From Sporichthyaceae bacterium (GTDB lineage: Bacteria > Actinomycetota > Actinomycetes > Sporichthyales > Sporichthyaceae): DNA of 45,530 bases. Location of the stretch: positions 1 to 45,530 of the forward strand of contig DASXPS010000031.1 of assembly GCA_036493475.1 (NCBI GenBank), in the 5' to 3' direction. The notes beneath the pieces are model-generated. The model ran no database searches and had not been told where the DNA came from. It worked only from the letters and a program-made list of their open reading frames with translations. Shown one piece after another: positions 3,995-26,004 of the stretch. The position numbers and the translations under genes were made by a program. Within the stretch, counting starts at the first letter, position 1, and the number at the start of each line of letters is the position of its first letter.

Positions 3995-3997
3995 TCC

Positions 3998-7635: not shown

Positions 7636-7646
7636 CCTCCGCCGGG

Positions 7647-9560: not shown

Positions 9561-9567
9561 GCGCGGC

Positions 9568-9573: not shown

Positions 9574-9605
9574 GTCTGCGGCGCACCGACGGAAAGAAGG
9601 TGGCC

Positions 9606-10814: not shown

Positions 10815-12066
10815 CCGCCGCGCCGTGTGGACGCCGCCGGCCCGTCCGGAGTGGGTGGCCCGGATCAATGCCGAGGGTGCGGGGATGGACCTGCGCCACC
10901 TGGTGCCGCTGGACGCCGACTCCCTGCTCACCGCGGCGCGGGAGGCCACCGGCCTGGACGATTTCGGCGTCGACGACTGGCGGGAACCGTTCGGCATCCT
11001 GCTGCGGGCCCTGGACGATGAGGCGCAGCTGACCCTGATGGGCCGGCTGATGACGCGCACCGATCTGCTGCTGTTCCTGCAGGCCCGACTGCAGGTCGAG
11101 CAGGCGTACTGCGACCACCCGCAGATCGAGGACGAGCAGATCACCCAGCCGCTGTTCATCGTCGGCCAGGGTCGAACCGGAACCACGTTCCTGCAGGGCC
11201 TGCTCGCCGCGGATCCGGAGAACGGCACGCTGCGCACCTGGGAGGTGATGTTCCCCTGCCCGCCACCGGAGGCGGCGAGCTACGACACCGACCCGCGCAT
11301 CGCGGTCGCCGATCACCTGGCCACGCAGTGGAACCGGGTCACTCCCGAGATCGAGGCCATCCATGAGTTCGCCGGTCATCTGCCGACCGAGAACATCCAC
11401 CTGCATTGTTTGTCGTTCCGCTCACCCGGCTGGTTGAACCTGCTCGGCCAGGTGCCCAGCTACGTCAGCTGGACGATGACGCAGGACCCAGCGATCGCCT
11501 ACCGCTACGAGAAGCGGGTGCTGAAGCTGCTGCAGTGGCGCAACCCGCGGCAGCGCTGGATTCTCAAGAGCCCGGTGTGCCTCGCGCAGATGCCCGCGAT
11601 CCTGCAGATCTACCCGGACGCGGGCTTCATCTGGACGCACCGCGACCCGGTTCGCGCGGTGGCCTCGGTGGTCTCGCTGATCGGCACGCTGTACTGGATG
11701 CGCACCGATCAGCCGTTCGTCGGTGACTCGCTGGAGATGTTCACCAGTGCGGACATGGCGGCCGGGATGATGACGTTGCCCATCGGGTGGCTCGAGGACG
11801 GCGCCGTGCCGCGCGACCGGGTGCATCACGTCGCCTACCGCGATTTCGTCGCCGACCCGGTCGCGAGTGTGGAGGACATCTACCGACATTTCGGTATTGC
11901 GTTGACGCCGCAGCGCCGGGCGATCCTGCAGGACTACACCGACACCCACGCCCGGTCCTCCCGCCCGGCGCACCGCTACGAGTTCGGTTCCGAGGAATTG
12001 GTCGCCCACGAGCGCGCCGCGTTCAAGACCTATCAGGACTACTTCAATGTTCCCGACGAGCCGTGA
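10801..12066 (+). CDS. PAPS-dependent sulfotransferase family protein
   Basis: A 421-aa protein of the Sulfotransfer_3 type common in actinobacteria. The 5'-phosphosulfate loop is FIVGQGRTGTTFLQGLL at about residues 118-134. The 3'-phosphate-binding region follows as WILKSPVCLAQMPAIL...FIWTHRDPVRAVAS. The family transfers sulfate from PAPS to hydroxyl groups of lipids, sterols or glycans. The acceptor here is unknown. The ATG at 10801 has a strong GGAGG site and lies inside the last codons of the DUF1214 gene. The weakly coding extension upstream of this ATG overlaps that gene and was rejected. Confidence 0.87.
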   Translation: MSVPDRRAVWTPPARPEWVARINAEGAGMDLRHLVPLDADSLLTAAREATGLDDFGVDDWREPFGILLRALDDEAQLTLMGRLMTRTDLLLFLQARLQVEQAYCDHPQIEDEQITQPLFIVGQGRTGTTFLQGLLAADPENGTLRTWEVMFPCPPPEAASYDTDPRIAVADHLATQWNRVTPEIEAIHEFAGHLPTENIHLHCLSFRSPGWLNLLGQVPSYVSWTMTQDPAIAYRYEKRVLKLLQWRNPRQRWILKSPVCLAQMPAILQIYPDAGFIWTHRDPVRAVASVVSLIGTLYWMRTDQPFVGDSLEMFTSADMAAGMMTLPIGWLEDGAVPRDRVHHVAYRDFVADPVASVEDIYRHFGIALTPQRRAILQDYTDTHARSSRPAHRYEFGSEELVAHERAAFKTYQDYFNVPDEP

Positions 12067-12115
12067 ACCCTACGATGCCCGGGTAGCTTGATCATCGGCG
12101 ACCGTGGGGGGAACG

Positions 12116-12946
12116 ATGGACAGCGGCCAGGCGATCCTGCTCGGAATCGTCGAGGGCGTGACCGAGTTCCTACCGGTGTCCAGCACCGGCCACCTGACCA
12201 TCGTCGAGAAATTGATGCACCTGCCGATTCGCGACGACGGCGTGACCGCGTTCACCGCGATCATTCAGCTCGGTGCGATCGCCGCGGCGATCATCTACTT
12301 CCGCAACGACATCCTGCGGTTGGCCCTCGGGTTCATCAACGGACTGATCAGCGAATCGGTCCGCCGCGGGCCGGACTTCCGCGAGGCGCTGATGGTGATC
12401 GGCGGGACGGTGCCGATCGCGATCGTGGGGCTGGCCGCCAAGCACGCGATCGAGGGTCCGTTGCGTCGGATGAGCGTGATCGCGGTGGCGCTGATCGCGT
12501 GGAGTGCGGTGATGTATTACGCCGAACGGGTGGCGAACAAACGCCGCGGCGAGTCCGATCTCACCTGGACCGACACGGTGGTGATCGGCGTCGCGCAATG
12601 CTTCGCGCTGGTGCCGGGCGTCTCCCGTTCCGGCGCCACCATCAGCGCCGGGCTGATCCGTGGCCTGGATCGGGTCGCCGCGACCCGTATCTCCTTCCTG
12701 CTGGCCATCCCGGCGTTGACCGCGGCCGGCGCCCTGGAAGCGGTGACCAAGGCCTCCGATGTCACCCGGGCGGTGGGCTGGGGTCCGACGCTGCTGGCCA
12801 CCGGGGTCAGCTTCGTGATCGCCTACGCCTCGATCGCCTGGCTGCTGCGGTTGGTCGCCGGGCACCCGATCACCGTGTTCATCGGCTACCGGGTGGTGCT
12901 GGGCCTGCTGATCCTCGACGTGCTGGTGGTGCGCGCGCTCAGTTGA
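12116..12946 (+). CDS. uppP: Undecaprenyl-diphosphatase UppP (BacA)
   Basis: A 276-aa polytopic membrane protein that recycles undecaprenyl diphosphate to the monophosphate carrier used for peptidoglycan and wall polymers. The two conserved regions are clear: GIVEGVTEFLPVSSTGHL at the N-terminus, and the second active-site motif PGVSRSGATISAGL in the middle. It has at least seven hydrophobic segments. The ATG at 12116 follows a GGGGGGAA ribosome site. The last 8 nt overlap the convergent PEP mutase-family gene. Confidence 0.95.
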   Translation: MDSGQAILLGIVEGVTEFLPVSSTGHLTIVEKLMHLPIRDDGVTAFTAIIQLGAIAAAIIYFRNDILRLALGFINGLISESVRRGPDFREALMVIGGTVPIAIVGLAAKHAIEGPLRRMSVIAVALIAWSAVMYYAERVANKRRGESDLTWTDTVVIGVAQCFALVPGVSRSGATISAGLIRGLDRVAATRISFLLAIPALTAAGALEAVTKASDVTRAVGWGPTLLATGVSFVIAYASIAWLLRLVAGHPITVFIGYRVVLGLLILDVLVVRALS

Positions 12947-13718
12947 GCCTGCGGGTGCCCTCCGGCAGGCCACCGCCGGCGTAGACGTCAATCGCGAGGT
13001 TCGCCAGCGCGGTCAGGGCGACGTTCTGGCTCCAAGGGCCATAGGACACCCGGGCCACCCCGAGTCGCGCGGCGGTGGCCAGGTCGATGGCGGCGGGGAT
13101 GCCGATGATGTTCACCTTCTGCGGGCCCAGGGCGTCGACCAGTGCGGCCACCGTGGCCTCGTCGAGTTTGCCCGGCGCGAAGAAGTTCGACGCGCCCGCG
13201 TCCAGGTAGGCGCGGCCGCGCTCGATCGCCTCGGCGAGCACCGCCTTGGGGTCGCGGTCACCGGCCTTGATGAAGATGTCGGTGCGCGCGTTCAGCACGA
13301 ACGGCACGCCCGCGGACTCGGCGGCCTTCACCGCGGCCTCGACCGCGCGCACCGCGTCGGGCAAGGGCTTCATCTGGTCCTCGAGGTTCGCGCCCACGAT
13401 GCCGACGTCGATGGCGCGGGAGATCGTCGAGCCGGCATCGCCGTACCCGCCCTCCAGGTCGGCGGTCACCGGCAGGTCGCCCGCGACCCACGCGATCAGC
13501 CCGACCGCGGCGATCATCTCCTCGACCGGGATCTTCTCCCCGTCCGGATAGCCGTGGGACGCCGCGACGGAGTGGCTGGCGGTGGCCAACGCCTTGGTGC
13601 CCTCGGTCTGGGCCACCACCTTCGCGCTGATCGCATCCCACACGTTGACCACGAGCAGCAACTCGGGATCGGCGTGCAACTGCTGCAGGCGCTTGGCCTT
13701 CTCCACGATGTCGGTCAT
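12939..13718 (-). CDS. Isocitrate lyase/PEP mutase superfamily enzyme
   Basis: A 259-aa TIM-barrel enzyme. NVWDAISAKVV, the metal-binding ADLEGGYGD and NLEDQ place it in the ICL/PEPM superfamily. It lacks the KKCGH loop of true isocitrate lyase, and I did not see a PEP mutase gating loop. Oxaloacetate decarboxylase or carboxyphosphonoenolpyruvate mutase-like lyase activity is more likely. FVLNARTDIF and GVARVSYGPW near the C-terminus are typical of this subgroup. It is convergent with uppP (8-nt overlap) and lies just downstream of the acyl-CoA synthetase gene on the same strand, with about 20 bp between them. Substrate unknown. Confidence 0.85.
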   Translation of the reverse strand: MTDIVEKAKRLQQLHADPELLLVVNVWDAISAKVVAQTEGTKALATASHSVAASHGYPDGEKIPVEEMIAAVGLIAWVAGDLPVTADLEGGYGDAGSTISRAIDVGIVGANLEDQMKPLPDAVRAVEAAVKAAESAGVPFVLNARTDIFIKAGDRDPKAVLAEAIERGRAYLDAGASNFFAPGKLDEATVAALVDALGPQKVNIIGIPAAIDLATAARLGVARVSYGPWSQNVALTALANLAIDVYAGGGLPEGTRRLN

Positions 13719-13738
13719 GGCTCCACTGTGCCAACGCG

Positions 13739-15265
13739 CTACCGACCGCGGAGGATCGGCCCCCAGTCGGTGGTCTCGCGCAACTGCCGCTTCAACACCT
13801 TGCCGCCGGGGTTGCGGGGCAGCGGCGTCTCGCTGATCGCCACGTACTGCGGGATCTTGAACTCGGCCAGTCGTCCTTCGAGGTGGGCGAACATCGCGTC
13901 GGGGTCGAACGCGGCCGGTGCGGTGGCCACCACGACCACGCCGACCTTCTCGCCCATGACGTCATCGGGCACGCCGACCACCGCCGCCTCGGCGATGCCG
14001 GGCGCGCCGGCCAACGCGTTCTCCACCTCCACGGAGTACACGTTCTCACCGCCGCGATTGATCATGTCCTTGGCGCGGTCGACGATGTAGACAAGTCCCT
14101 CGTCGTCGATGCGGGCCAGGTCGCCGGTGTGCAGCCAGCCGTCGACGAACGCGGCCGCGGTTGCCTCGGGCTTGTGCCAATAGCCGGCCACCACGTTCGG
14201 GCCACGCACCAGCAACTCCCCCACACCTGACACCAAGTCAGGGTCCTTCAGCCGTAGATCGACCACCGGTGCCGCGAAGCCGACCGAGTCGGCGTGCTCG
14301 GCGGACCACTCGTCGGGCAGGTAGGTCGCGATCGAGGAGGTCTCGGTGAGCCCGAACCCATTGCCCAACCGTGCCAAGGGGTACGCCTTCTTCAGCCGTT
14401 CGACCAGCGCAGATGCGATCGGCGCCCCCCCGTAGGCGACCCGGATCACCGAGCTGATGTCAGTGCCGGCGAAGTCAGGGTTGGCAATGGCCATCGCGTG
14501 GATCGCCGGGACGGTGACCAGAATGTTGATCCGTTCGATGGCGATCGTCTGCAGGAATGTGCTGACCCCGAATACGGGCAGGATCACCGTGGCGCCGCCG
14601 ACTGCCAACTGCACCAGCAGCTGGGTGTTGCAGCCGGTGACGTGGAACAGCGGTACCGACACCAGATTGCGCAACGTCGGGCCCTGTGCACGATCGATCG
14701 GCACCACGCGGACCGCGGTCTCGATGTTGGCCACGAAGTTCTCGTGGGTGGTGATCGCGCCCTTGGGCGCCCCGGTGGTGCCGCTGGTGTAGAAGATCGC
14801 GGCTGGGTCCTCCGGCCGCAGCCCCTGGACCACCTGCGCCGCCCCGCACGGCAGCGCCTCGCCCGGTCGGAACACGTGGGTGGCGCCGGAATCGGCGAGC
14901 ACGTAGTCGATCTCCGGCTCGGCGAAACGGGTATTGACCGGCACCACCACCCCGCCGGCGAACAGCGTGCCGAGGAACGCGAGCACCCACTCAACGCCGG
15001 CGGGCAGCAGGATCGCGGCCCGATCGCCGGTACGGAATCCGTCCGCCCGCAGGCCACCGGCAACCTCGGCCGCCCGATCCCAGAGCTCGGTATAGGTGAG
15101 TCGCGGGCCGCCGACCTCGACGACCGCCTCATGGTCCGGGTAGGCCGCGACGGACGCCCGGATCGCCTCCATCAGGGACTCGGGCAGGTTGTCGTAGCGG
15201 GCCACCCCGGAGGCATCGCGGGTGATGCCGTCGAGGGCGAACGGTCCGTGCTTGGTCTCGGTCAC
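13739..15265 (-). CDS. AMP-dependent acyl-CoA synthetase/ligase
   Basis: A 508-aa adenylate-forming enzyme (ANL superfamily) that activates a carboxylic acid as acyl-AMP and passes it to CoA. Motifs in order are FYTSGTTGAPKGAITTH (P-loop), GNGFGLTETSS, then WLHTGDLARIDDEGLVYIVDRAKDMINRGGENVYSVEVE, and a C-terminal catalytic lysine in NPGGKVLKRQL. The GTG at 15265 gives a usual family length and follows the zinc peptidase stop (15270) by 4 bp. Further upstream sequence is not ligase-like. The chain or aromatic specificity cannot be told from sequence. Confidence 0.9.
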   Translation of the reverse strand: MTETKHGPFALDGITRDASGVARYDNLPESLMEAIRASVAAYPDHEAVVEVGGPRLTYTELWDRAAEVAGGLRADGFRTGDRAAILLPAGVEWVLAFLGTLFAGGVVVPVNTRFAEPEIDYVLADSGATHVFRPGEALPCGAAQVVQGLRPEDPAAIFYTSGTTGAPKGAITTHENFVANIETAVRVVPIDRAQGPTLRNLVSVPLFHVTGCNTQLLVQLAVGGATVILPVFGVSTFLQTIAIERINILVTVPAIHAMAIANPDFAGTDISSVIRVAYGGAPIASALVERLKKAYPLARLGNGFGLTETSSIATYLPDEWSAEHADSVGFAAPVVDLRLKDPDLVSGVGELLVRGPNVVAGYWHKPEATAAAFVDGWLHTGDLARIDDEGLVYIVDRAKDMINRGGENVYSVEVENALAGAPGIAEAAVVGVPDDVMGEKVGVVVVATAPAAFDPDAMFAHLEGRLAEFKIPQYVAISETPLPRNPGGKVLKRQLRETTDWGPILRGR

Positions 15266-15269
15266 GCCC

Positions 15270-15962
15270 TCAGTCTTTCGTTCGCCTCCTCGGCTGGGGA
15301 AGGTCGCAGCGGGCCGGGTCGCCGTTGCGATATCCGACGCTGAGTTCGCGTTCCCGCTGCCGGGGGGTGCCGTGGTGGTCCGGTGAGCGGTAGTCGTAAT
15401 CCCCCAGCGCGTACAACGCCTGCCCGGCACCCGCCAGATCGCCCGCGTCGAGTAACCCCCGGTCCCCCGCATCGTGCGCCCACACCCCCGCCCAACAGTC
15501 GGCCTGCAGCTCGGCGATCTCCACCGTGGGCGGATGCAGTTTGTGCAGCCGCTGTACGTGGTGGGACCACTCGTGTGCCAGCGCCACCGCCGCGGCGAGG
15601 TCCCCGAAGTTTCGATAGATCACCCGGTACAGCCAGCCCGCGGACATGTACACGGTGTCGTCGCGCGGGCAGTAGAACGCGGGCGACGCATCATCGGCGC
15701 CGTCCACCGGATCGGCCACGGCCACGCCGCACGCGCTGTTGCGGGACCGACCCTGCGGCGCAAGTACCAGCCGAGCCGAGTGGTACGGCGCGGAGTGCTC
15801 GCGAGACCAACTCGCCCAGAAGCTGTCCACGTCGTCGGCCACCGCCTGCTCGAAGGCCACGAAGTGGTTGTAGGTCAAGCCGTCGTCGGCCCGCGCCGCT
15901 TGCATGGGCGTGCCCACCAGGGCCGCCGCCACCAGCACGCCGAGGAACCCCACCCGCCGCAT
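15270..15962 (-). CDS. Secreted putative neutral zinc metallopeptidase (YpfJ-like)
   Basis: A 230-aa exported protein with a Sec signal peptide (MRRVGFLGVLVAAALVGTPMQ, cleavage near ARADD). The zinc site is HEWSHH, an HExxH motif at about residue 132, followed by the ELQADCWAGVW helix that supplies the third ligand in the YpfJ/neutral zinc metallopeptidase family. A preceding CPRDDTVYMS is also characteristic. Three extra cysteines may form disulfides. The stop lies 4 bp before the start of the acyl-CoA synthetase gene. Function and substrate of this family are poorly known. Confidence 0.82.
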   Translation of the reverse strand: MRRVGFLGVLVAAALVGTPMQAARADDGLTYNHFVAFEQAVADDVDSFWASWSREHSAPYHSARLVLAPQGRSRNSACGVAVADPVDGADDASPAFYCPRDDTVYMSAGWLYRVIYRNFGDLAAAVALAHEWSHHVQRLHKLHPPTVEIAELQADCWAGVWAHDAGDRGLLDAGDLAGAGQALYALGDYDYRSPDHHGTPRQRERELSVGYRNGDPARCDLPQPRRRTKD

Positions 15963-16071
15963 AACCGCCCCTTCCGCGTCGGGCCGGGCGCCCGAGTGCA
16001 GCCGCGACGTTAGGCGGCCGGCGGAGGATTTCGCGGGGTTTTGGCGGCTCTGTGGATAAGCCCTGCGTCAA

Positions 16072-16566
16072 TCAAAGAAGAGGTGAGCCGTACATATTGC
16101 CGAGCGGATCGGAGATGAGCTCCAGGCGCGCACCATCGGGGTCGGAGAAGTACATGGAAGAGCCGCCGTGGATCACGTGCTCCACCCCGGCTGCGGTCAA
16201 CCTGTCGCGCAACCGCGTCCAGCTCTCCGGCGGTACCGAGATCGCCAGATGGTGCAGGCCGCCGAGCACCTCCGCGTACGGGCCGAGGTCGAGGCCGGGG
16301 AAGTCGAAGAACGCCAGCAGGTTGCCGTTGCCGATGTCGAAGAAGAAGTGGTTGGAGCCCTGGTAGTCCCGGTTCTCGAAGATCTCGGTCAGCGGGAACT
16401 CCAACAAGCCCTGGTAGAACTCGATCGTGCGCCGCACGTCCTGCGAGAGCAGCGCGATGTGGTGCACGCCGCGCGCGCTGCTCGGTGGTCGCTTCCCCGG
16501 TTCGGCCAGATATTGCGCCTGGATCCGCTCGCGGTCGGCGTTGATGGCGGCCAGATCGATACCCAT
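16072..16566 (-). CDS. VOC-family (glyoxalase/dioxygenase-like) protein 1
   Basis: A 164-aa vicinal-oxygen-chelate protein with two paired beta-alpha modules. Likely metal ligands are the histidines in HHIALLS and LHHLAIS and the glutamate in GARLELIS. NHFFFDIGNGNLLAFFDFPG is a strong match to ring-cleavage dioxygenase or lactoylglutathione-lyase-like VOC proteins. It starts at an ATG behind GGGGGAGAT and is 9 bp downstream of a second VOC gene on the same strand. The pair, plus the broken mycothiol-enzyme gene just upstream, suggests a small thiol- or aromatic-detoxification operon. Confidence 0.85.
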   Translation of the reverse strand: MGIDLAAINADRERIQAQYLAEPGKRPPSSARGVHHIALLSQDVRRTIEFYQGLLEFPLTEIFENRDYQGSNHFFFDIGNGNLLAFFDFPGLDLGPYAEVLGGLHHLAISVPPESWTRLRDRLTAAGVEHVIHGGSSMYFSDPDGARLELISDPLGNMYGSPLL

Positions 16567-16575
16567 ATCTCCCCC

Positions 16576-17049
16576 TCAGACGCCCGCAACCGGTTCGGGA
16601 TCGGTGAGGAAGGGTTCAGCGTCCAGGTCACGCGCGGAGACCGAGAACTCCAGGGAGATGCCGTTCGGGTCGGTGACGTACACCGACCGGACGATGCCGT
16701 GATCGATGATCTCGCTCACGTCGGCGCCGACGTCGGTCAACCGCTCGCGCAACGACTCCAGGTCAACGTCGGATTCGACGCTGACCGAGACGTGATCGAA
16801 CTGTCTGCCCGACCCGGGCACACCGGAATCCTTCCGGGGTGGCAGTTCGGCGTCCTTCCACTCGAAGAACGCGATGGCCGCGCCGCGTCCGATGGACAGA
16901 AAATAGTGACGGTACGGCAGGTGCTCGTTGTTGCCCAGGGTCGCCACCACCGGCATGCCCAGCACGTCGCGGTAGAACCGCACAGTGGCGTCCATGTCGT
17001 TGGTGACCAGCACGATGTGGTTCGCCCCGGCGTAGTTAATCTCGGACAT
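16576..17049 (-). CDS. VOC-family protein 2
   Basis: A 157-aa VOC protein. Candidate metal ligands are in NHIVLVTNDMDATVRFY, FDHVSVSV and the C-terminal ISLEFSV. It has the same module order as its neighbour (NGISLEFS against DGARLELI) but only modest similarity, so this is probably an old duplication or a heteromeric partner. I chose the ATG at 17049, which sits behind a GGGGA ribosome site and begins MSEINYAGANH, 11 bp after the true stop of the degraded mycothiol-enzyme gene. The genes were likely one operon before that gene decayed. Substrate unknown. Confidence 0.84.
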   Translation of the reverse strand: MSEINYAGANHIVLVTNDMDATVRFYRDVLGMPVVATLGNNEHLPYRHYFLSIGRGAAIAFFEWKDAELPPRKDSGVPGSGRQFDHVSVSVESDVDLESLRERLTDVGADVSEIIDHGIVRSVYVTDPNGISLEFSVSARDLDAEPFLTDPEPVAGV

Positions 17050-17060
17050 CGGATTCCCCG

Positions 17061-17602
17061 TCAGATCTGGAAGGACAGCGAACGGAAGCGATCGGCCACC
17101 GCCGCGTCGCCGCGAGTGGTACCGCCGCGGATCCGCCCGTAGGACGTGAGCACGAGCGAGGCCGGGTCGAAGTCGATGACGGCGGGCAGGTCGTCGACCG
17201 GGCCGGGCTCGTAGGCGAGGGGTGCAAGACCTGCATGCCCATCCAGTCCTCGGCGGAGAGGCTTTCGTAGATGCCGGTAGCGGTGTCCAGGTCGGACTGG
17301 AGCCGGTCGAGGGCCTCACTCTGCGACAGCACCCGGTGGGACCGGGCCCGCTCGTCCAGCCGGGCCGCCATGGCGCGCAGACCGATCGGCATGTCCGTGG
17401 ATTCCTGGTTGGCCCGGGCCAACTCGAAGCCGGGGAAGTAGCCCTCGGTGGCGTCGATCATGTGCCCGACCTGGTCGCGCACCTGCCAATTGCTGCACGC
17501 GGTCGGCGCCTCCCACGTATCGGATTCGGAGGCCAATCCGATCAAACCCGCCGCCTCCCGACGGACCAACCCCAACAGGGTGTCCTTCGCGGCGAAATCC
17601 AT
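17061..17602 (-). pseudogene. Remnant of a mycothiol-dependent MDMPI/DinB-type gene with internal deletion and frameshift
   Basis: The 5' part encodes MDFAAKDTLLGLVRREAAG... through GIYESLSAEDWMGMQVLHP, a MDMPI N-terminal four-helix domain (TIGR03083-like) with CSNWQVRDQVGHMIDATEG. Immediately after VLHP the frame changes. In another frame the sequence becomes LAYEPGPVDDLPAVIDFDP and then ASLVLTSYGRIRGGTTRGD and AVADRFRSLSFQI, with its stop at 17061. That is the end of the SCP2-like C-terminal domain of the same family. From memory, intact relatives have roughly 90 more residues between these parts, so DNA seems to have been lost at the junction near 17225-17232 with a shift of frame. The start is taken as the ATG at 17602; 17662 is possible. 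Confidence 0.75.
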
Positions 17603-17665
17603 GGCGTTGAACTTCGCGGACGTGGTGCCTCCTCGGTGGGGGGATCCGTCCTGTGGTGGCATCCT

Positions 17666-18505
17666 TCAGGACGCTTCGCGCTGCGTGAAGCCCCCGAGCG
17701 CCACCGAATACTCGTCGCGGGTCGCGTCGTAATGAACGGTGTACGTGGTCGGGTAGAGACCACTGCGCTGGTAGGCGGCCGGCTCCTTGAGCTGCTCGTC
17801 GAGCGGGGTGTGGGAGAGCAGCCAATCGCGGGTGATCATCGGCTCGAGAAAGATGACGTTGCCGTTCCAGGAGCCGCGGATCATCTCCTCGGTGAAGTCG
17901 TACTGGTGCGGCGTCCGGATGATTGCCTTGTCCGCCCAGTGCAGGCCCATCAGCGGAACGGTGTTGCTGACCGCGGTACCCGGCGGCGGGGCAAAGTCCG
18001 TCGGCATGTACTTGGTATCGGGTAGGTTCTCCGCCTTGGTGGCGAAGTCCTCGTTGGCCGGATCGACCTCCTTGGACACCGACTCGTCCGCGATGAAGAA
18101 GTGGTAGTCGAAGTGCGGCTTGTCCCAGATGCCGGGCGGCTCGTGCCCCATCGGGTTCCAGTAGAACTCGACGTGGTTGAGCACACCGGTACCCACCGCG
18201 CTGGGGAACTCGAGCATCACCGGCACGGGGTGTCCCTCGGGCATGTCGTTCGGCAGTGCGCGCAAGGCGGCCCCAGTCATCCGCACCCCGACCTCGACCG
18301 GCTTCCCCGCCGCGTCATTGACCACGTAGGTCCATACGGCGCCATCGCCCATCGGCTTGCTCGGCCCGGTCGCCGTCTGGCCCGGAGCGGCTGTGGCCGT
18401 GGCCGTGGGAACCACCGCGGCGGACGCGGTGGAGTGCCCGTCGGTGCAGCCGGCCAGCAGGGTCACCGCGACGGACGCGGCGGCCGCCGCACAGATTGCT
18501 TTCAT
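17666..18505 (-). CDS. Lipoprotein of the DUF5602/TTHB210-like family
   Basis: A 279-aa exported lipoprotein. A short signal ends in the lipobox LLAGC, and an Ala/Thr-rich linker follows. The mature part contains PEGHPVPVMLEFP, HVEFYWNPMGHEPPGIWDKPHFDYHFF and NTVPLMGLHWAD, resembling TTHB210-like (DUF5602) proteins. The many histidines (GHEPP, HFDYHF, GLHW) suggest metal binding, which is inference. The ATG at 18505 has a GAGAGG ribosome site. The protein is probably anchored to the outer leaflet of the membrane. Its biological role is unknown to me. Confidence 0.72.
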   Translation of the reverse strand: MKAICAAAAASVAVTLLAGCTDGHSTASAAVVPTATATAAPGQTATGPSKPMGDGAVWTYVVNDAAGKPVEVGVRMTGAALRALPNDMPEGHPVPVMLEFPSAVGTGVLNHVEFYWNPMGHEPPGIWDKPHFDYHFFIADESVSKEVDPANEDFATKAENLPDTKYMPTDFAPPPGTAVSNTVPLMGLHWADKAIIRTPHQYDFTEEMIRGSWNGNVIFLEPMITRDWLLSHTPLDEQLKEPAAYQRSGLYPTTYTVHYDATRDEYSVALGGFTQREAS

Positions 18506-18687
18506 GGCACAACCTCTCGGGTGCGGCCCACGACGACCTCGGAGCGGTCGATGGGCACCTCGTATGTGGGGACGTGGCGACGTGCGTTGAGGCGATGCAC
18601 TGCGAATCAGGGATGCGCGGTGGCCTGGTGCGCTGTGAGCACGATGGTCGGCACCCGCTCCGGGCCGAGCCATCGCCCGAACCGGTG

Positions 18688-19722
18688 CTACTTGCGCGCG
18701 ATCGCTGCGGAGGCGGGCCCGGCCAGCGGCAGGATCTCGACCGAACGGAAGCCGGCTTCGGCGCACCAGCCGCGGAAGTCCGCGCCGGAGAAGTCGAAGG
18801 CGTCCCCGAACTCGATGAGCATGTTCAGCGACATCATCAGACCGAAGGCGTTCTCCCGACGGTCGTCATCGATGATATTCTCCACCGCGATGAACACACC
18901 GCCGGCGGGCAGCGCCTCGTAGGCCTGGCGGATCAAGTGCAGTTTCCGCTCCAGGTTCCAGTCGTGCAGGATCATGCCCATCGTGATCACGTCGGCCTTG
19001 GGCAGCCGGTCGGCGAAAAAGTCACCGCCCACCGCCTCGACGCGGTCGGTCAGCTTGGCGTCGGTGATGGTGCGCTCGGCGATCGGCACCACGACCGGCA
19101 GGTCGAAGCTGGTGCAGCGCAGATGCGGATGGTGCTGCGCGAGGATGATCGAGAGCTGACCGGTGGCCCCGCCGACGTCGCAGGTGGTCTGGTACGGCGA
19201 GAAGTCGAACTTTTGCGCCAGTGCGGTGAAGTTGCCCACCGAGATACCGGCCATGGCCCGCATGAACTGCTCCAGCCGCGCCGGGTCGGCGTAGAACTGC
19301 TCGAACATCGAGGTGCCGGTCTGCTTGACCTCGTTCTGCGGCCGGCCCGTCTGCAGCGCCTCGGTCAGCCCACCCCAGAACGGGTACAGCCGCGCGTCGG
19401 CCATCTCCAAAAAGCCGCCGAAGTAGGCGGGCGACTTCTCGTCGAGGAAGGTCCCGGTGTCCAGGGTGTTGCGGTAGGTCGCGGACGGCCCGGAGCCGTC
19501 GCGCTCCAACAGCCGCAGGGCGACCAGCGTATCGAGGAAGTCATAGGTGGCCCGCGAGCCGAAGCGCAGTCGGTCGTGGAGCTGGTCGCCGGTCATCGGC
19601 CCCTCGCCGAGCACCGTGAACAGGCCGAGACCCACCGCGGACAGCAACGTCTTGGACGGCCAGAAACCCATACCGATCTGCAGGATCGCGGTGGGGTCCG
19701 GCGCGGTGGGTTGAGCGCTCAT
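18688..19722 (-). CDS. O-methyltransferase, class I SAM-dependent (hydroxyneurosporene/COMT-like)
   Basis: A 344-aa SAM-dependent methyltransferase. The N-terminal winged-helix dimerisation domain (LHDRLRFGSRATYDFLDTL, ALRLLERDGSGPSATYRNT) is followed by a Rossmann domain. Its SAM motif is CDVGGATGQLSIIL, then GDFFADRLPKADVITMG and the catalytic-region ILHDWN. This is the plan of caffeate/hydroxyneurosporene O-methyltransferases, usually acting on phenolic or polyketide hydroxyls. The ATG at 19722 follows a GGAG site. The next gene downstream is the DUF5602-like lipoprotein, 182 bp away. The acceptor is unknown. Confidence 0.88.
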   Translation of the reverse strand: MSAQPTAPDPTAILQIGMGFWPSKTLLSAVGLGLFTVLGEGPMTGDQLHDRLRFGSRATYDFLDTLVALRLLERDGSGPSATYRNTLDTGTFLDEKSPAYFGGFLEMADARLYPFWGGLTEALQTGRPQNEVKQTGTSMFEQFYADPARLEQFMRAMAGISVGNFTALAQKFDFSPYQTTCDVGGATGQLSIILAQHHPHLRCTSFDLPVVVPIAERTITDAKLTDRVEAVGGDFFADRLPKADVITMGMILHDWNLERKLHLIRQAYEALPAGGVFIAVENIIDDDRRENAFGLMMSLNMLIEFGDAFDFSGADFRGWCAEAGFRSVEILPLAGPASAAIARK

Positions 19723-19905
19723 GGTGGCTCCGATCGGCAGTGGGCGCCCGGCAGGGCACGGGCGGGGTATTGCGGTCCGGCCGTCATCCGCGGCGGTACG
19801 GATACCGTGATACACGCTCACCTTCGGACGCGCCAGAGACGCGCGGGCACGGGCAGTCGGCACGCCACTGCCGGCCCATCGATTTGCCGAGATCAGTGGC
19901 TGACG

Positions 19906-20634
19906 TCAACGCGTAGCGCGAAGCTTGGGCAGCGGCGCCCAGGTGACTGGAACCTCCCGCATGATCAGCGCCGAGTCGAGCACCACGCTCCCGGCCGGGA
20001 AACGGGTCCGGTCGTCGAAATATGACGAGTGCGCGCGGATGACCACCGCCGGCTCGACCTTCCATGCGGCAGTGCGCAGCTCCAGGCCGTCGAAGTGTGC
20101 GGAATCACGGGTGGCGGAGAAGCCCACGGCGCCCCTTTCGAAGAAAGCCGAGGCCTCCGCAACGTTCCGGAAGATAGCGCTCCCTTCCAGCTCGTCGACG
20201 ACGCGGATCGCGACGTCGACCTCGGCTGAACCGTCGCGCGCGGTGTACGCGACGTGCACCTCGCTCGGCGTTTCCTGCACCCGGAACGTGGCCGGGAAGT
20301 GCAACCCCGGATACAGCCGGCCGCCGACTGCTCGGTTCACCATCGAATCGCTGTCCCGTCGGGGAATGTAGACCCCGGTACCGCGCCCTTGCGGGGATTC
20401 CCATTCAACAGCGACCCGATGTGCCGCGTTCTCACTGCGCAACCCCAGCTGCCGGGGCAGGCCCTTGATGCGCATTCCGCCGAGCCGGATCAGACAGATC
20501 CCGGCCACCGCCGCACCGTCGACCAGGTGCGGCTCAAACGGTGCAGGAAGGTGGCGGGCCATAACCTCGGGATCCACCCGATAGTTAATGAGCAATCGGC
20601 GTTCGATCTCGCCCTGAATCAGCGGCGGCTTCAT
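19906..20634 (-). CDS. DUF2071 (YqjF-like) protein
   Basis: A 242-aa soluble protein of the YqjF/DUF2071 acetoacetate-decarboxylase-like fold. Visible blocks are INYRVDPEVMARHLPAPFEP, ENAAHRVAVEWES and GTGVYIPRRDSDS. No enzymatic role is established. The ATG at 20634 lies behind GAGGGGG. The frame stays open further upstream into the tRNA-derived fragment at 20815, but that stretch is not protein-like. The gene is the first intact CDS on the DUF2071 side of the tRNA-Ala scar. Confidence 0.82.
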   Translation of the reverse strand: MKPPLIQGEIERRLLINYRVDPEVMARHLPAPFEPHLVDGAAVAGICLIRLGGMRIKGLPRQLGLRSENAAHRVAVEWESPQGRGTGVYIPRRDSDSMVNRAVGGRLYPGLHFPATFRVQETPSEVHVAYTARDGSAEVDVAIRVVDELEGSAIFRNVAEASAFFERGAVGFSATRDSAHFDGLELRTAAWKVEPAVVIRAHSSYFDDRTRFPAGSVVLDSALIMREVPVTWAPLPKLRATR

Positions 20635-20814
20635 TGCGACCCCCTCGGGCTCCGGGCCATCCGTCTTCAGGATGCGCCACCACAACGTCGGCCGCGTCCT
20701 GACCGCCCAATTCGGGGCTCGGAATGCAGGTTGCAACGAGGGTGGCGTCAGAGGCGCCGCGATCGCCTCAATCGGCGCAACGTGCATCCCGAGCCGCGCC
20801 GCGGCCATCTTTTG

Positions 20815-20856
20815 TGGAGCTGAGGGGATTCGAACTCCTGACCCCTTCCATGCCAT
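20815..20856 (-). repeat. 42-bp copy of the 3' half of tRNA-Ala, distal att-like repeat
   Basis: The minus strand reproduces the tRNA-Ala(GGC) gene at 21724-21796 from the first base of its anticodon loop to the discriminator base, 41 of 42 positions identical. One change breaks a T-stem pair. Homology stops exactly at the 5' edge of the anticodon loop, so it is not a functional tRNA. The same orientation and tRNA boundary are what a tyrosine-recombinase element leaves after integrating into a tRNA. Confidence 0.85.
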
Positions 20857-21030
20857 CACGGTCCGAGGGGTCCTTTACAGCCCGTGTAGTGCGAGGTCAG
20901 GATCCTGGCCGTCCGCCGCCGTCGGCCCAAATCCAGGGCGGTTGCTACAGAATCTGCTACACGCCGTAGCCGGAGAAATGGTCATCGGCTCGCGCCGGGC
21001 GCGGACTCGACCACGTCGATGATGCGGCGG
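20857..21030. other. Non-coding stretch inside the tRNA-Ala direct repeat
   Basis: Between the partial tRNA copy and the cupin gene I find no convincing coding frame. The sequence has several short CTACA/TGTAG words (GGTTGCTACAGAATCTGCTACA near 20939-20960, GGCTACAGG near 21030, TTACAGCCCGTGTAG near 20874). They could be arm-type integrase-binding sites of a vanished element. No integrase reading frame is recognisable. The flank 20635-20814 towards DUF2071 also looks empty. Confidence 0.4.
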
Positions 21031-21519
21031 CTACAGGGGCGGATCTTCCAGCGGTGGCCCGATGATCTGGATGCCGTTCTCGGCCGCTGCCCGCATCAGT
21101 CGGTCGATGTCAGGAGGGGTCGGCGCGGGCAGGCCGGGGGCCGACGCCGGTTCGCCGGCCGCCCGGACGAAGTCCTCGAACCCCGCGGGGGTGGTCAACA
21201 AGAGGAAGTGGGCTTCCTCGGAGTCGACGCGGAAGCGGTGCTCGACATTGCGTGGGCCGAAGACGAAACCGCCGTCCGTGACCGTGCGCTGCTCACCGGC
21301 GAATTCGACCGTGAGTTGGCCATTCAGCACGTAGAACATCTCGTCCGCGGCGGTATGCACGTGCAGCGGCGCTCCGTGGCCGCGCGGAGCGTGAAACTCG
21401 GCGAGGAACAGTCCGCCGCCGTTCTGCGTGCTCGTCGTCTTGTAGGTGACGCGGGCACCGAGGAACCAGTGCGGCTCTCCTTCGGTGGCGTCCAGTACGT
21501 AGCCGATCGGAGCACTCAC
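21031..21519 (-). CDS. Single-domain cupin protein
   Basis: A 162-aa cupin. Motif 1 is PLHVHTAADEMFYVLNGQLTV with metal-binding H, H and E. Motif 2 is PRNVEHRFRV with the second histidine. The ending APTPPDIDRLMRAAAENG is typical of quercetinase-like cupins in actinobacteria. I chose the GTG at 21519, with an AGGA site 8 nt upstream. A TTG 18 codons earlier is possible. It is the only clear gene between the intact tRNA-Ala and its partial copy, so it may be cargo of the element that left the scar. Reaction unknown. Confidence 0.8.
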   Translation of the reverse strand: MSAPIGYVLDATEGEPHWFLGARVTYKTTSTQNGGGLFLAEFHAPRGHGAPLHVHTAADEMFYVLNGQLTVEFAGEQRTVTDGGFVFGPRNVEHRFRVDSEEAHFLLLTTPAGFEDFVRAAGEPASAPGLPAPTPPDIDRLMRAAAENGIQIIGPPLEDPPL

Positions 21520-21676
21520 TTGTGCCGTCCTGTCCGTGGCAACGGGTCGCGCCCAGCGGAACGTGGCCGCCAATAAAGACTTTCATATGGTCACGGGACA
21601 ACGAGGCACTGATGCGGCCGTGTCATCGGCACGACGCGAGTCGCCAGGTGTTCGGCAATGCGTCAGGTGGCCCACG

Positions 21677-21708
21677 AGAAACGCCCCCGACCGATTCGGT
21701 CGGAGGCG
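21677..21708 (-). terminator. Rho-independent terminator of tRNA-Ala
   Basis: Reading the minus strand after the tRNA, a 12-bp stem with one G-T pair (CGCCTCCGACCG / CGGTCGGGGGCG) and an AAT loop is followed by TTTCT. It starts about 16 nt beyond the tRNA 3' end. Confidence 0.8.
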
Positions 21709-21723
21709 CTCGGGCGGCTCGAG

Positions 21724-21796
21724 TGGAGCTGAGGGGATTCGAACCCCTGACCCCTTCCATGCCATGGAAGTGCGCTACCAACTGCGCTACAGCCCC
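21724..21796 (-). tRNA. tRNA-Ala (anticodon GGC)
   Basis: A full cloverleaf of 73 nt without encoded CCA. The acceptor stem GGGGCTG/CAGCTCC includes the G3-U70 wobble pair that identifies alanine tRNA. The anticodon stem is CTTCC/GGAAG with the loop ATGGCAT (anticodon GGC, plus-strand positions 21761-21763), and the T-arm is AGGGG-TTCGAAT-CCCCT. A TAGCCT -10-like box lies upstream at 21824-21829 and a small hairpin leader lies between. Its 3' half is copied at 20815, so it is the likely attachment site of a mobile element. Confidence 0.96.
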
Positions 21797-21861
21797 GATC
21801 GACGCCCCTGGCGTCGGGGATGCAGGCTAGCAGCCGACGGCCGTCGCCCGCGAAAACACCG

Positions 21862-22095
21862 TCAGCGGGCGCCCTCTTCGCGGCTTTGCTGCAATGACGG
21901 CGCCCCGGCATCGTGGGAGTCCCACGGCGGGCGCACCACGTTGACGCAGGCCGACGTCGACTCTGCCTGCTCCGATCCGGACGCGTCGCCGCCAGGACGC
22001 GCGTCCTGCTCGGCGCCGCGCAGAAGGTCGCTCGTGGAGCCCGAGTTCACGCCCTCGGGCTCCACCAGGTCGCGGCGGTGTTTTCCCTCACTCAT
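21862..22095 (-). CDS. Small hypothetical protein coupled to the upstream gene
   Basis: A 77-aa hydrophilic protein rich in Gly, Ser, Glu and Asp (MSEGKHRRDLVEPEGVNSG). Its ATG overlaps the stop of the upstream gene (ATGA, 4 nt), which argues for coupled translation and against a shadow frame. It has no helix, signal or motif that I recognise and looks partly disordered. It ends about 65 bp before the tRNA-Ala promoter. It could also be an incidental frame. Confidence 0.4.
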   Translation of the reverse strand: MSEGKHRRDLVEPEGVNSGSTSDLLRGAEQDARPGGDASGSEQAESTSACVNVVRPPWDSHDAGAPSLQQSREEGAR

Positions 22096-22556
22096 CCGGC
22101 GTGCAACGGTGCCTCGGCGGGCGCCTTCTTTTGGCCGGCCTGTGCGGCCGGGGGCGCTGCGGTTTCGGCGGGCATCCAGTCGTCGCTGTCGTGCGGCAAC
22201 TTCCAGGCCTTCCAGGCCGCGGCGGCACCCGCGCCGAGCAGCGTCAGCATGAGGGCCTTGCGGCCCCAGCGGCGCGACTTCGGCTCCACCATCGCATGGC
22301 CGGCCAACGCCTGCGCGGCCGCGCTGCCGCGGCGGGCGGCCTCGGCGCGCCACGGCTCGGTGGCCGCGATGCCGTCCTTCACCCGGGGCAGCACCTCATC
22401 GACCATCATGTCGCGGGTCTTCATGCCTGCGGTGGCCAGCGCCGGGGCAACCACCTCTCGGGTCTTGGCACCCGCGGTGGCCAGCGTCGGGACGACGTAG
22501 CTCCTCAGGTCCTCGGCGTTGTCGCGCAGCACAGCAGTGGCCTGGTTGCGGCTCAT
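22092..22556 (-). CDS. Conserved hypothetical protein, DUF5324-like, single membrane segment
   Basis: A 154-aa protein. The N-terminal half is amphipathic and repetitive (VVPTLATAGAKTREVVAPALATAGMKTRDMMVDEVLP), with an almost duplicated module of about 17 residues. A basic stretch (EPKSRRWGRKALM) then precedes a hydrophobic segment (LTLLGAGAAAAWKAW), and the tail is Ala/Pro-rich. This matches my memory of a small conserved protein family next to ppiA and the rhomboid gene in actinomycetes, but I could not verify it. The ATG follows AAGGGGA. It is divergent from ppiA across a 131-bp promoter region. Confidence 0.65.
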   Translation of the reverse strand: MSRNQATAVLRDNAEDLRSYVVPTLATAGAKTREVVAPALATAGMKTRDMMVDEVLPRVKDGIAATEPWRAEAARRGSAAAQALAGHAMVEPKSRRWGRKALMLTLLGAGAAAAWKAWKLPHDSDDWMPAETAAPPAAQAGQKKAPAEAPLHAG

Positions 22557-22687
22557 TCTGGGTTCCCCTTTCAATTTCGTCTCCCCTGTTCCTTCCCGCC
22601 CGTGGCCCCGCCACTCCCGCGCGCTCTCGCGTGCAAGGATTGTCACGACCGCCGAGCGGGCGGTCGTTGTGCCGGGAAGAGGTGCCA

Positions 22688-23209
22688 GTGGCCGCGCAGC
22701 ACGCCGTCATCCACACGAACTTGGGCGACATCAGGGTTCGCCTGTTCCCCGACCACGCTCCGACCACGGTGAAGAACTTCACCGAACTGGCCGAGGGCAA
22801 GCGGGAGTGGACCGATCCGCGGACCAACGCGCCCTCCACCGAGCCGCTGTACAACGGCACGATCTTCCACCGGGTGATCTCCGGGTTCATGATTCAGGGC
22901 GGTGACCCGCTGGGCACCGGCACCGGCGGCCCCGGCTACCGGTTCAAGGACGAGTTCCACTCCGAGCTGATCTTCGACCGGCCGTACCTGCTGGCCATGG
23001 CCAACGCCGGCCCGAGCACCAACGGCTCCCAGTTCTTCATCACCGTGGTGCCCACTCCGTGGCTGACCATGAAACACACGATCTTCGGTGAGGTGGCCGA
23101 CGAGAGCAGCCGCGACGTGGTGGAGGAGATCGGCGCCGTACGCACCGGCCCGCGCGACCGTCCGACCCGAGACGTCGAGATCACCAGCATCGACGTCGAG
23201 TACAGCTAG
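22688..23209 (+). CDS. ppiA: Cyclophilin-type peptidyl-prolyl cis-trans isomerase
   Basis: A 173-aa cytoplasmic cyclophilin. It shows TNLGDIRVRLFPDHAPTTVKNFTELAEG, the catalytic FHRVISGFMIQGGDPLGTGTGGPGY, LAMANAGPSTNGSQFFITV and TPWLTMKHTIFGEV. All the usual active-site residues (the R of FHR, and FMIQGG) are present. The GTG at 22688 lies behind AAGAGG. A 9-bp inverted repeat (22645-22667) sits in the leader. It is followed 12 bp later by the rhomboid gene on the same strand, the usual actinobacterial pairing. It speeds proline isomerisation in folding proteins. Confidence 0.95.
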   Translation: MAAQHAVIHTNLGDIRVRLFPDHAPTTVKNFTELAEGKREWTDPRTNAPSTEPLYNGTIFHRVISGFMIQGGDPLGTGTGGPGYRFKDEFHSELIFDRPYLLAMANAGPSTNGSQFFITVVPTPWLTMKHTIFGEVADESSRDVVEEIGAVRTGPRDRPTRDVEITSIDVEYS

Positions 23210-23221
23210 CCCAGCGCGCTC

Positions 23222-24172
23222 GTGGCCAATATCGACAGCGTCCCCGGCGGTCCCCCGGTCTGTTACCGCCACCCGGATCGGGAGAGCCATGTCCGCTGCG
23301 GGCGGTGCGGCCGGTACATCTGCCCGGACGACATGGTGTCCGCGGCGGTCGGTTTCCAGTGCCATGAGTGCGTCCGGGCGGGCAACAAAGGGGTTCGCAC
23401 CCCGCGCACGGTGACCGGCGGGGTCGCGCGAACCAACACCGGCGTGATCACCATGGCGATCATCGGGATCAACGTCTTCGTGTTCCTCGCCGTGCAGGGC
23501 TCGGATCGATTGCTGGAACGGCTGCTGCTGACCGCGTACTCCAGCGACGGTCACGGGGTGGCCCAGGGCGGCTGGTACCGACTGATCAGTGCGACATTCC
23601 TGCACCAGCAGACCTTCCACATCCTGCTGAACATGATCGTGTTGTGGATGTTCGGCCGACCGCTGGAGGCTCAGCTCGGCCGGGTCCGCTACATCGTCAC
23701 CTACCTGATCTGCGGACTCGGTGGCTCCTGCGCGTCCTATTTGTTCAACCCGCCGGGTACCGCGTCGCTGGGTGCCTCCGGCGCGGTGTTCGGGCTGATC
23801 GGCGTGCTGCTGGTGGTGGAACGCCGGTTCGGCTCGAGCACCCCGAGCGCGCTGATCTACCTGGCCATCCTGCTGTTACCGGGCATCGTGATCAGCAACG
23901 TGGACTGGCGCGCGCACGTGGGCGGGCTCATCGTCGGCTTCGCGCTGGGCGGGATCTACGCCTACACCCCGCGGTCGAACCGCACGTATTGGCACGCCGG
24001 GCTGTGCGTGGCGATCACCGCAGCGCTGCTGGTCTCCGTCGGCGTGCGCACGCATCGGATCAAGGAGCAGGTGGCCCAGCGGTTCGGGCCGGGCATCTCC
24101 TTCGAGCTGGTTGTCCACACTGGGGACAACCCATGTGGAGAACTACAGCGGTGTAACTCGGTCCGCGGCTAG
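23222..24172 (+). CDS. Rhomboid-family intramembrane serine protease with N-terminal zinc-binding domain
   Basis: A 316-aa protein. The first 50 residues hold a Cys/His cluster (C14, H17, H23, C26, C29, C34, C47, C50) resembling a B-box-type zinc finger. Six or seven helices follow. The catalytic serine is S186 in GASGAVFG, the partner histidine is H232 in WRAHVGG, and HQQTFHILLNMIVLWMFG carries the conserved oxyanion asparagine. The GTG at 23222 has no good ribosome site and is 12 bp after the ppiA stop. The last codons contain a DnaA-box cluster. The stop overlaps that of the convergent crgA gene by 4 nt. Substrate unknown. Confidence 0.9.
   Translation: MANIDSVPGGPPVCYRHPDRESHVRCGRCGRYICPDDMVSAAVGFQCHECVRAGNKGVRTPRTVTGGVARTNTGVITMAIIGINVFVFLAVQGSDRLLERLLLTAYSSDGHGVAQGGWYRLISATFLHQQTFHILLNMIVLWMFGRPLEAQLGRVRYIVTYLICGLGGSCASYLFNPPGTASLGASGAVFGLIGVLLVVERRFGSSTPSALIYLAILLLPGIVISNVDWRAHVGGLIVGFALGGIYAYTPRSNRTYWHAGLCVAITAALLVSVGVRTHRIKEQVAQRFGPGISFELVVHTGDNPCGELQRCNSVRG
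24111..24142. promoter_or_regulatory. Three DnaA-box-like 9-mers at the rhomboid/crgA junction
   Basis: TTGTCCACA (24111-24119, plus), TTGTCCCCA (24121-24129, minus) and TTCTCCACA (24134-24142, minus) lie within 32 bp. The first two form an inverted repeat, GTTGTCC...GGACAAC. TTGTCCACA is the DnaA-box form favoured in GC-rich actinomycetes. They lie within the 3' end of the rhomboid gene. Binding is inferred. Confidence 0.45.
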
Positions 24173-24417
24173 CGCCACTGGGTGGCGGTGACGAACCCGC
24201 CGGTGATGAACGCGAAGCCGACCAACAGATTGGCGTTGCCGATGCCCGGCATCGGCCAGTCGCCGTTGCTCACGTAATAGACGACGATCCACAGCAGCCC
24301 CACCATGAACAGGCCGACCATCAGCGGCGCCACCCAGTTCGCGCTCGGACCCAGCTTGACCGCCTTGGGCGTGGGCGCCGACTTGTCATCCTTCTTCCGC
24401 ACCCGCGACTTGGGCAT
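24169..24417 (-). CDS. crgA: Cell division protein CrgA
   Basis: An 82-aa septation regulator of actinobacteria that interacts with FtsZ-ring and peptidoglycan-synthesis proteins at the division site. It has a basic N-terminus (MPKSRVRKKDDKS), then two membrane helices at about residues 29-46 and 63-79, joined by the conserved YYVSNGDWPMPGIGNANLLVGF. Length and motifs are standard. The ATG is directly behind GGAGGGGAC. It is divergent from the DUF881/sortase operon (55 bp between starts) and convergent with rhomboid. Confidence 0.95.
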   Translation of the reverse strand: MPKSRVRKKDDKSAPTPKAVKLGPSANWVAPLMVGLFMVGLLWIVVYYVSNGDWPMPGIGNANLLVGFAFITGGFVTATQWR

Positions 24418-24459
24418 GTCCCCTCCTGCTGCGCACCATTCCCGACGTCAACGCTGAGC

Positions 24460-24465
24460 TAGCGT
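24460..24465 (+). promoter_or_regulatory. -10 box of a leaderless DUF881-sortase operon
   Basis: TAGCGT is followed by 7 nt and the ATG of the DUF881 gene, with no ribosome site. Transcription would start at or beside the start codon. It overlaps the divergent crgA promoter region. Confidence 0.45.
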
Positions 24466-24472
24466 AGCGGCC

Positions 24473-25264
24473 ATGACCGTGCCCGGGCCGCCGTCGGGGC
24501 GTTCCGCCTGGCGGGTCGGGGTGCCGCTCGTGCTGGCCATGGCCGGCCTGCTGTTCGCGATCACCGCGAACACCGCGCGTGGCACCAACCTGCGCTCCGC
24601 GGAGAACACCCGGTTGGTCGACCTGATCCGGGCCGCCGAGCAGCGCAACGACCGGGTCAGCGCCACCGGCGACCGGTTGCGCGCCGAGGTGGACCGACTC
24701 TCTGCCGGCGCGCAGGACCCCCAGGCGCAGCAGGTGCGTGCCGATGCCGACGCGATCGCTCCACTGGCCGGGCTCACGGCGCTGACCGGGACCGCGCTGA
24801 CGGTCACCCTGGACGACGCCCCGCCCGCAGCGGCCGACCGCAGCTACCCCGGGCTGCCGCAGCCCACGCCGGACGACCTGGTGGTGCACCAGCAGGACCT
24901 GCAGGCGGTGGTCAATGCGTTGTGGTCCGGCGGTGCCAACGCCATCCAATTGATGGACCAACGGATCATCTCGACCAGCGCGGTGCGATGCGTGGGAAAT
25001 GTGCTGATCCTGCAGGACAGGGTGTACTCCCCCCCATATTCGGTGACCGCCATCGGTGATCTGTCCCGTCTGTCCAACGCGCTGAAATCTTCCTCGGCGA
25101 TTTCCAACTACCGGGACTATGTCGCCGCCTATGGTCTTGGGTATCGGGTGGTCAAGCATGCACGGCTGACCGTCCCGGCGTACTCGGGCACGCTCGATCT
25201 GCAGTACGCGTTGGAATCCACGGGGAACGAACCGAGCGCTTCGCCGACCAGGGGGAACGGTTGA
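24473..25264 (+). CDS. DUF881 family membrane-anchored protein
   Basis: A 263-aa protein with one N-terminal membrane helix (VPLVLAMAGLLFAITANTA, about residues 17-35), then a coiled-coil-like stretch rich in Arg/Glu (NTRLVDLIRAAEQRNDRV). The extracytoplasmic DUF881 domain follows, with LTVTLDDAP, VVHQQDLQAVVNALWSGGANAIQLMDQRI and CVGNVLILQDRVYSPPYSVTAIGD. Actinobacterial genomes carry this family beside crgA and sortase E, so a division or envelope role is likely, although the activity is unknown. The stop overlaps the sortase start by 4 nt (TTGA). It appears to be leaderless. Confidence 0.9.
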   Translation: MTVPGPPSGRSAWRVGVPLVLAMAGLLFAITANTARGTNLRSAENTRLVDLIRAAEQRNDRVSATGDRLRAEVDRLSAGAQDPQAQQVRADADAIAPLAGLTALTGTALTVTLDDAPPAAADRSYPGLPQPTPDDLVVHQQDLQAVVNALWSGGANAIQLMDQRIISTSAVRCVGNVLILQDRVYSPPYSVTAIGDLSRLSNALKSSSAISNYRDYVAAYGLGYRVVKHARLTVPAYSGTLDLQYALESTGNEPSASPTRGNG

Positions 25265-26004
25265 GCACCATCATCACGGCGCGGCCTGCCGGGGTACCGC
25301 GCCCGCGGCGGACGTCTCCCGGTCGCGCCCTTGTGCACGTGGTCGGCGAGCTGATGATCACCGTCGGCGTGGTCATGCTGCTGCTGGTCGTCTATCAACT
25401 CTTCTGGACCAACATCGAGTCCAACCACAAGGCCCACCAGATCGAGTCGCAGCTGCGCGAACAGTGGACGCAGCCGCCGACCAAGGGCGCGAAGATCCCC
25501 GGCGACGCGATCGGGATCATGTACATCCAGCGGCTCGGCAAGACCTGGGAGAAGCCGATTGTCGAGGGTGTCGACCTCGACGACCTGGCCAAGGGTGTCG
25601 GCCACTTCATCGGCACCCAGGATCCCGGCGACGTCGGCAACTTCGCGGTGGCCGCGCACCGGGCCACGCATGGTGAGCCGTTCGCGAATCTGAACGAGAT
25701 CCAGGTCGGCGACAAGATCGTGGTGGAGACCCGCACCGACTACTTCACCTACACCGTGGACAAGATGCCCGGTGGCTCGGCCGAGCACCCGGCCTGGAAG
25801 CTGGTCGACCCCAACTTCGGCGCGGTCGTGTTGCCGGTGCCGGAGAAGCCGGGCGCGGTGCCCACCAGGAAAGAAATCACGCTGGTCACCTGTAACCCAC
25901 GGTGGGGCCACACCACCCGGCTGATCGTGTACGGGCACCTGACCGATGACGTGAAGAAGAGCTCGGGCCAGCAGCCCGCCGCACTCACCTACTTCAAAGG
26001 CTGA
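25261..26004 (+). CDS. Class E sortase
   Basis: A 247-aa membrane-anchored cysteine transpeptidase that attaches LAXTG-type surface proteins to peptidoglycan. One N-terminal helix (LMITVGVVMLLLVVYQLF) follows a proline/arginine-rich cytoplasmic tail. The catalytic histidine is H133 (VAAHRATHGEPF), the cysteine is C211 in LVTCNPRWGHTTRLIVYGHL, and the arginine is R220. The start is a TTG overlapping the DUF881 stop, behind GGGGGAACGG. A 57-aa membrane protein follows 4 bp after the stop. Confidence 0.92.
   Translation: MSTIITARPAGVPRPRRTSPGRALVHVVGELMITVGVVMLLLVVYQLFWTNIESNHKAHQIESQLREQWTQPPTKGAKIPGDAIGIMYIQRLGKTWEKPIVEGVDLDDLAKGVGHFIGTQDPGDVGNFAVAAHRATHGEPFANLNEIQVGDKIVVETRTDYFTYTVDKMPGGSAEHPAWKLVDPNFGAVVLPVPEKPGAVPTRKEITLVTCNPRWGHTTRLIVYGHLTDDVKKSSGQQPAALTYFKG

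Follow-up and report, generated by a model that had tools for sequence, protein, structure and literature searches.

Most actinomycete integrative and conjugative elements (AICEs) insert into tRNA genes, at the 3' end, and several of them carry Nudix and HD genes (PMC3218068). The Islander collection comprises 3919 tRNA islands, 2083 of which have an anticodon-centred crossover (PMC4383910), and the tRNA fragments left by mobile elements, which arise by partial duplication at integration, are described as widespread (PMC9897764). Here, we analyse a stretch of 45,530 nt from a Sporichthyaceae bacterium (GCA_036493475.1, contig DASXPS010000031.1, here C31; the whole stretch is called the window), in which an intact tRNA-Ala(GGC) gene is accompanied by a copy of its 3' half. 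We are confident that this half-copy is the tRNA 3' end displaced by the insertion of a tyrosine-integrase element, and consider that the 0.87 kb between the two copies are most likely what deletions have left of an element akin to one in G001, a genome of the same genus. The interpretation of the half-copy as an integration scar is strongly supported, and the deletion of the integrase and most of the element appears to be the best account of the interval.

Both ARAGORN and Rfam call a tRNA-Ala with anticodon GGC on the minus strand (21723/4-21796). A BLASTN search of the window's whole genome matched bases 32 to 73 of this tRNA to positions 20815-20856, also on the minus strand, 0.9 kb downstream of the intact gene (98% identity, i.e., 41/42; E = 4.7e-14). 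The match begins at A32, where the anticodon loop starts, and extends to the discriminator A73, with one extra matching C beyond. These searches confirm the partial copy described in an earlier note on this DNA, which had it running in the same orientation from the anticodon loop to the discriminator with 41 of 42 positions matched. The sole mismatch, G to A in the T-stem, breaks a pair, and neither ARAGORN nor Rfam calls the half-copy as a tRNA. No comparable tRNA-like site was found elsewhere in the window, where the best matches outside the tRNA all fall inside the half-copy. A similar trace might remain if the tRNA gene had simply been duplicated and one copy had then lost its 5' half by decay, and an 8-mer shared with the 5' half of the tRNA (GGGCTGTA) does lie upstream of the half-copy. 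This signal is weak (1.5% of shuffles reach it) and its register is off by 3 nt, the other bases of the 5' half being gone while the 3' half is kept at 41/42. No such 5'-half remnant was seen beside the half-copies of the relatives described below. The identical sharp boundary recurs in these genomes with different neighbours, some of the copies lying beside integrases, which makes duplication very improbable.

The searches at the levels of genus, family and order together provided five lineage genomes including that of the window, the order search adding none; apart from G001, they are three members of another genus of the same family (G002, G003 and G004). The tRNA-Ala(GGC) gene is present in 5/5 of them, and 4/5 have a copy of its 3' half that begins at base 30-32, with contents up to the tRNA that are unrelated in every case. 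The interval between tRNA and half-copy measures 0.87 kb in the window, 2.0 kb in G002, 17 kb in G003 and, if the contigs are joined in the simplest way, 5.5 kb in G001. The G004 contig, which reaches only 2 kb beyond the tRNA, shows no half-copy. The tRNA of G001 lies at the end of one contig and the 42-base core at the end of another, which has a second core 5.5 kb inward. The earlier note had proposed a crossover by a tyrosine integrase in the anticodon loop. This proposal is upheld by the boundary, which is at base 32 in the window and exactly so in G001 and G003, and at base 30 (within 2 nt) in G002, and by the presence of an integrase within the interval of G003. The note had also suggested aligning the locus in related genomes, and had named conservation of the interval in all close relatives as an outcome that would contradict it; the contents differ in each genome, and G003 has a full element with an integrase. 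At the level of the class, a search of 297 genomes returned, among the matches listed, full-length tRNA only, which has no bearing on half-copies outside the lineage.

One may ask if the half-copy results from chance recombination or from an artefact of assembly. The window's genome is a draft of 217 contigs (4.27 Mb), short repeats can be misjoined and the contigs of G001 break at this same repeat. Against this, both copies lie within one contig and differ by one base, and the single-contig genome G003 has the same architecture of tRNA and half-copy. We regard such an origin as extremely improbable.

The 17 kb interval of G003 encodes a tyrosine integrase (L025:7863-9044) directly preceded by a 63-aa HTH_17 excisionase-like protein, and further contains RepSA (Pfam 1.3e-86), an FtsK/SpoIIIE protein, a Nudix protein, an HD-domain protein and an HTH regulator. 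Judged by this gene set, it is a complete AICE. Two other integrases, each oriented towards the core, are found just outside half-copies: the one in G001, I3, loses its frame near the C-terminus, and the one in G003, I2, has no N-terminus. That damaged integrases abut the outer side of these half-copies indicates that insertions occurred in series: an integrase beside a core would mark the tRNA-proximal end of an older element, displaced once a later element entered the restored tRNA. The tRNA-Ala(GGC) gene is a recurrent attachment site of tyrosine integrases in this lineage, probably of at least three types. In IMG/VR, the exact attachment core gave no match and the G003 integrase no confirmed match; among the best rows against phage records, this integrase has 30-31% identity, mainly with mycobacteriophages. 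A Shedu SduA anti-phage gene (L025:9051-10325; PADLOC 8.8e-120) lies between the AICE integrase of G003 and the tRNA.

The window interval is far simpler, and here too the description given in the earlier note stands. It had reported only a cupin gene and non-coding DNA between the repeats, and the ORF list and Pfam return one cupin ORF and two non-coding arms (G+C content of 67%, against 69% in the surroundings). It had reported the absence of an integrase, and profile searches found no PF00589 match anywhere on contig C31. It had also proposed a BLAST of the interval against integrase and excisionase families: in the window, tblastn with the integrases of three relatives returned tRNA-derived and chance matches only, and these candidates for integrase remnants were rejected. 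Finally, it had flagged several CTACA words, which turn out to include a tandem, TGCTACA-N5-TGCTACA, matched near the tRNA in G004 and with related forms in G002 and G001.

This tandem belongs to a broader pattern. Short direct repeats 11-12 bp apart, an arrangement that arm-binding sites of integrases should show, are found near the cores, about 60 nt from them on the tRNA side and 85-105 nt on the far side, and fall into three sequence types common to several genomes. The intervals of G001 and G003 have the type GTCACTCA at either end, with just one unit at the G001 contig edge. The type TGCTGACTTTCTGCTGAC is found at the 3' end of I2 in G003 and in the far arm of G002. The type TGCTACATC is found on the tRNA side of G004 and, degenerate, of G002, and I3 of G001 has one unit of it within its 3' end. 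The far arm of the window carries TGCTACAGAATCTGCTACA at 20943-20961, at a distance of 86 nt from the core. The exact pattern TGCTACA-N5-TGCTACA is found nowhere else in the window's genome, and G004 has two copies of it, of which one lies 61 nt from the tRNA; by our own rough estimate, the chance that either G004 copy falls within 200 nt of the tRNA is about 2 in 10,000. The second G004 tandem, on another contig beside a gene that resembles a transposase by eye, was treated as a chance occurrence. The window tandem would thus probably be bound by the arm-binding domain of an integrase, as an arm-type site.

The cupin provides a second link to G001. Over 428 bp (20999-21426), the cupin region has 94.6% nucleotide identity with a stretch of the G001 island on contig C108 that lies beyond I3, compared with about 72-85% for the longer backbone matches between window and G001 to the right of the tRNA. 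The G001 copy has lost around 100 bp near its 5' end, and its island also holds the integrase I3, whose 3' end bears TGCTACATC. That the window and G001 have an arm type and a cargo gene in common at the same tRNA suggests a common kind of element. Elsewhere in bacterial genomes, the best match of the cupin is in Pseudonocardia (81% aa identity), where no tRNA-Ala half-copy was found beside it.

These same data could be explained by a small non-autonomous element, made of arms, core and cupin and moved by an integrase supplied in trans, in which case the interval would not be a deletion remnant. Both core-bearing ends are indeed present in the window, the 5.5 kb interval of G001 also lacks an integrase, yet has matching arm repeats at both ends, and the cupin is common to both islands. 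However, no relative of the matching integrase, I3, was found in the window's genome (E <= 1e-10), the arm motif on the tRNA side is unrecognisable, the half-copy is mutated and no other instance of the unit is known. We consider this explanation unlikely, and less likely than a remnant. It is likewise quite unlikely that the blocks of 0.87 kb in the window and 5.5 kb in G001 are cassettes of single metabolic genes (for instance the cupin) that move between the tRNA-Ala sites of the lineage by means of AICE integrases. Given the lack of an I3 relative, the 0.87 kb block is probably immobile.

The remnant explanation would involve the following steps. A tyrosine integrase would have inserted an element at tRNA-Ala(GGC) by a crossover in the anticodon loop; the core of the element, equivalent to the tRNA 3' half, would have restored the gene and pushed the original 3' half to the far end. 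The site would have been used repeatedly in the lineage, by integrases of at least three types. The window element would be a relative of the element that has left an integrase remnant in G001, and would have kept two arms and the cupin cargo while the integrase and the remaining element were lost from the block. The geometry of the repeat, the variation of the interval among relatives, the complete element of G003, the integrases next to the half-copies of G001 and G003, and the arm motif and cupin in common are all observed. We infer that the integrase was lost, that the element would once have been much larger, what role the tandem plays and that the block no longer moves.

Several points weigh against this account. 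The lineage is represented by only five genomes, and the 5.5 kb interval of G001 presumes the simplest joining across a contig break. The window alone does not reveal the family of the element, since neither the ORF list nor Pfam shows an integrase or another mobility gene in the interval. The arm that adjoins the intact tRNA has no clear TGCTACA pair, and its terminator-like stretch could be native flank, as it also resembles the flank of the G002 half-copy. Tandem 7-mers at a spacing of 12 are not rare in themselves (0.13 per 190 nt in this coding-rich DNA), and the pattern TGCTACA-N5-TGCTACA was picked after inspection; the independent part of the arm evidence is therefore the G004 copy.

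Other observations concern the surroundings of the locus (Table 1). The first codons of the DUF2071 ORF run through the half tRNA (MAWKGSGVRIPSAP, 20808-20859), and an ORF at the G002 half-copy does likewise; the start as called is probably too far upstream, and gene callers would probably misplace it in this way. The region 3982-20814 of the window, from a FemAB-like gene to the half-copy, is nearly all unalignable with its G001 counterpart (L028/L013, C108), which points to a variable island about 17 kb wide that extends beyond the 0.87 kb block. On the side of the tRNA that faces away from the island, the two genera differ, with cwsA/ppiA here (window 21797-26000) and a ponA-like gene there (L025, L026, L027), which suggests a chromosomal rearrangement with one end at tRNA-Ala. 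The window's genome (G000) also has clusters of two to three adjacent tyrosine recombinases on C26, C53, C71, C85, C94, C154, C170 and C199, which we take to resemble multi-copy recombinase-in-trio elements.

Table 1. Positions of the tRNA copies, arms and ORFs of the locus within the window.
Feature	Positions	Strand	Basis
Intact tRNA-Ala(GGC), putative integration target (attB), kept functional	21724..21796	-	ARAGORN; Rfam RF00005, 67.4 bits
Displaced tRNA 3'-half copy (bases 32-73, 41/42), putative far attachment scar	20815..20856	-	BLASTN; boundary shared with relatives
Non-coding arm, inner side of half-copy (P arm)	20857..21030	.	Outside cupin ORF; placed like the P arms of G001, G002 and G003
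Tandem TGCTACA-N5-TGCTACA, probable integrase arm-type site	20943..20961	+	86 nt from core; single genome occurrence; motifs of relatives
Cupin_2 ORF, probable cargo, start codon uncertain	21031..21573	-	Pfam Cupin_2 6e-14; match to G001 C108 island
Inner arm at tRNA 3' end, terminator-like hairpin 21680-21709	21670..21723	-	In 80.6% match to G002 tRNA-adjacent stretch; hairpin read from sequence
DUF2071 ORF outside the scar	19906..20859	-	ORF list; Pfam DUF2071 at residues 86-233

The locus matters mostly for its context. One tRNA gene of an under-sampled actinobacterial lineage has been a long-used insertion hotspot, with states that range from a complete AICE with Shedu to a bare scar. Such series reveal how islands accrete and decay, and show that arm sites and relatives make it possible to recognise remnants that are too small for island finders.

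Among the described systems, the G003 element resembles AICEs of the pSAM2 type (PMC3218068) in having an integrase, an excisionase-like protein, RepSA, an FtsK-like transfer protein and a Nudix protein, whereas the window block has only the site and the geometry in common with them. Its interval, which encodes only the cupin, has neither an FtsK/SpoIIIE transfer protein nor a replication initiator (RepSA, RepAM or Prim-Pol), in contrast to G003, which has the former and RepSA; the arm repeats of the G003 AICE are also of another sequence type than those of the window. The islands of Islander (PMC4383910) are closer in structure: like them, the window has an intact tRNA with a 3' fragment downstream in the same orientation, and a crossover, at base 32, in one of the known subsites (anticodon loop, T loop, T/acceptor junction), here the anticodon-loop class. 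Islander also expects an integrase within or overlapping the interval, which is present in G003 and for which contig C31 gave no PF00589 match, and an interval of 2 to 200 kb. With no integrase and 0.87 kb, the window block would be rejected by that pipeline, as befits a scar. The fragment also resembles those of PMC9897764, which are partial tRNA copies produced by partial duplication during element integration; that study centred on Thermococcaceae and on misannotation, while the window fragment is not called as a tRNA. The window scar leaves the understanding of integration itself unchanged and is, by comparison with these systems, a good but ordinary case of a well-known kind.
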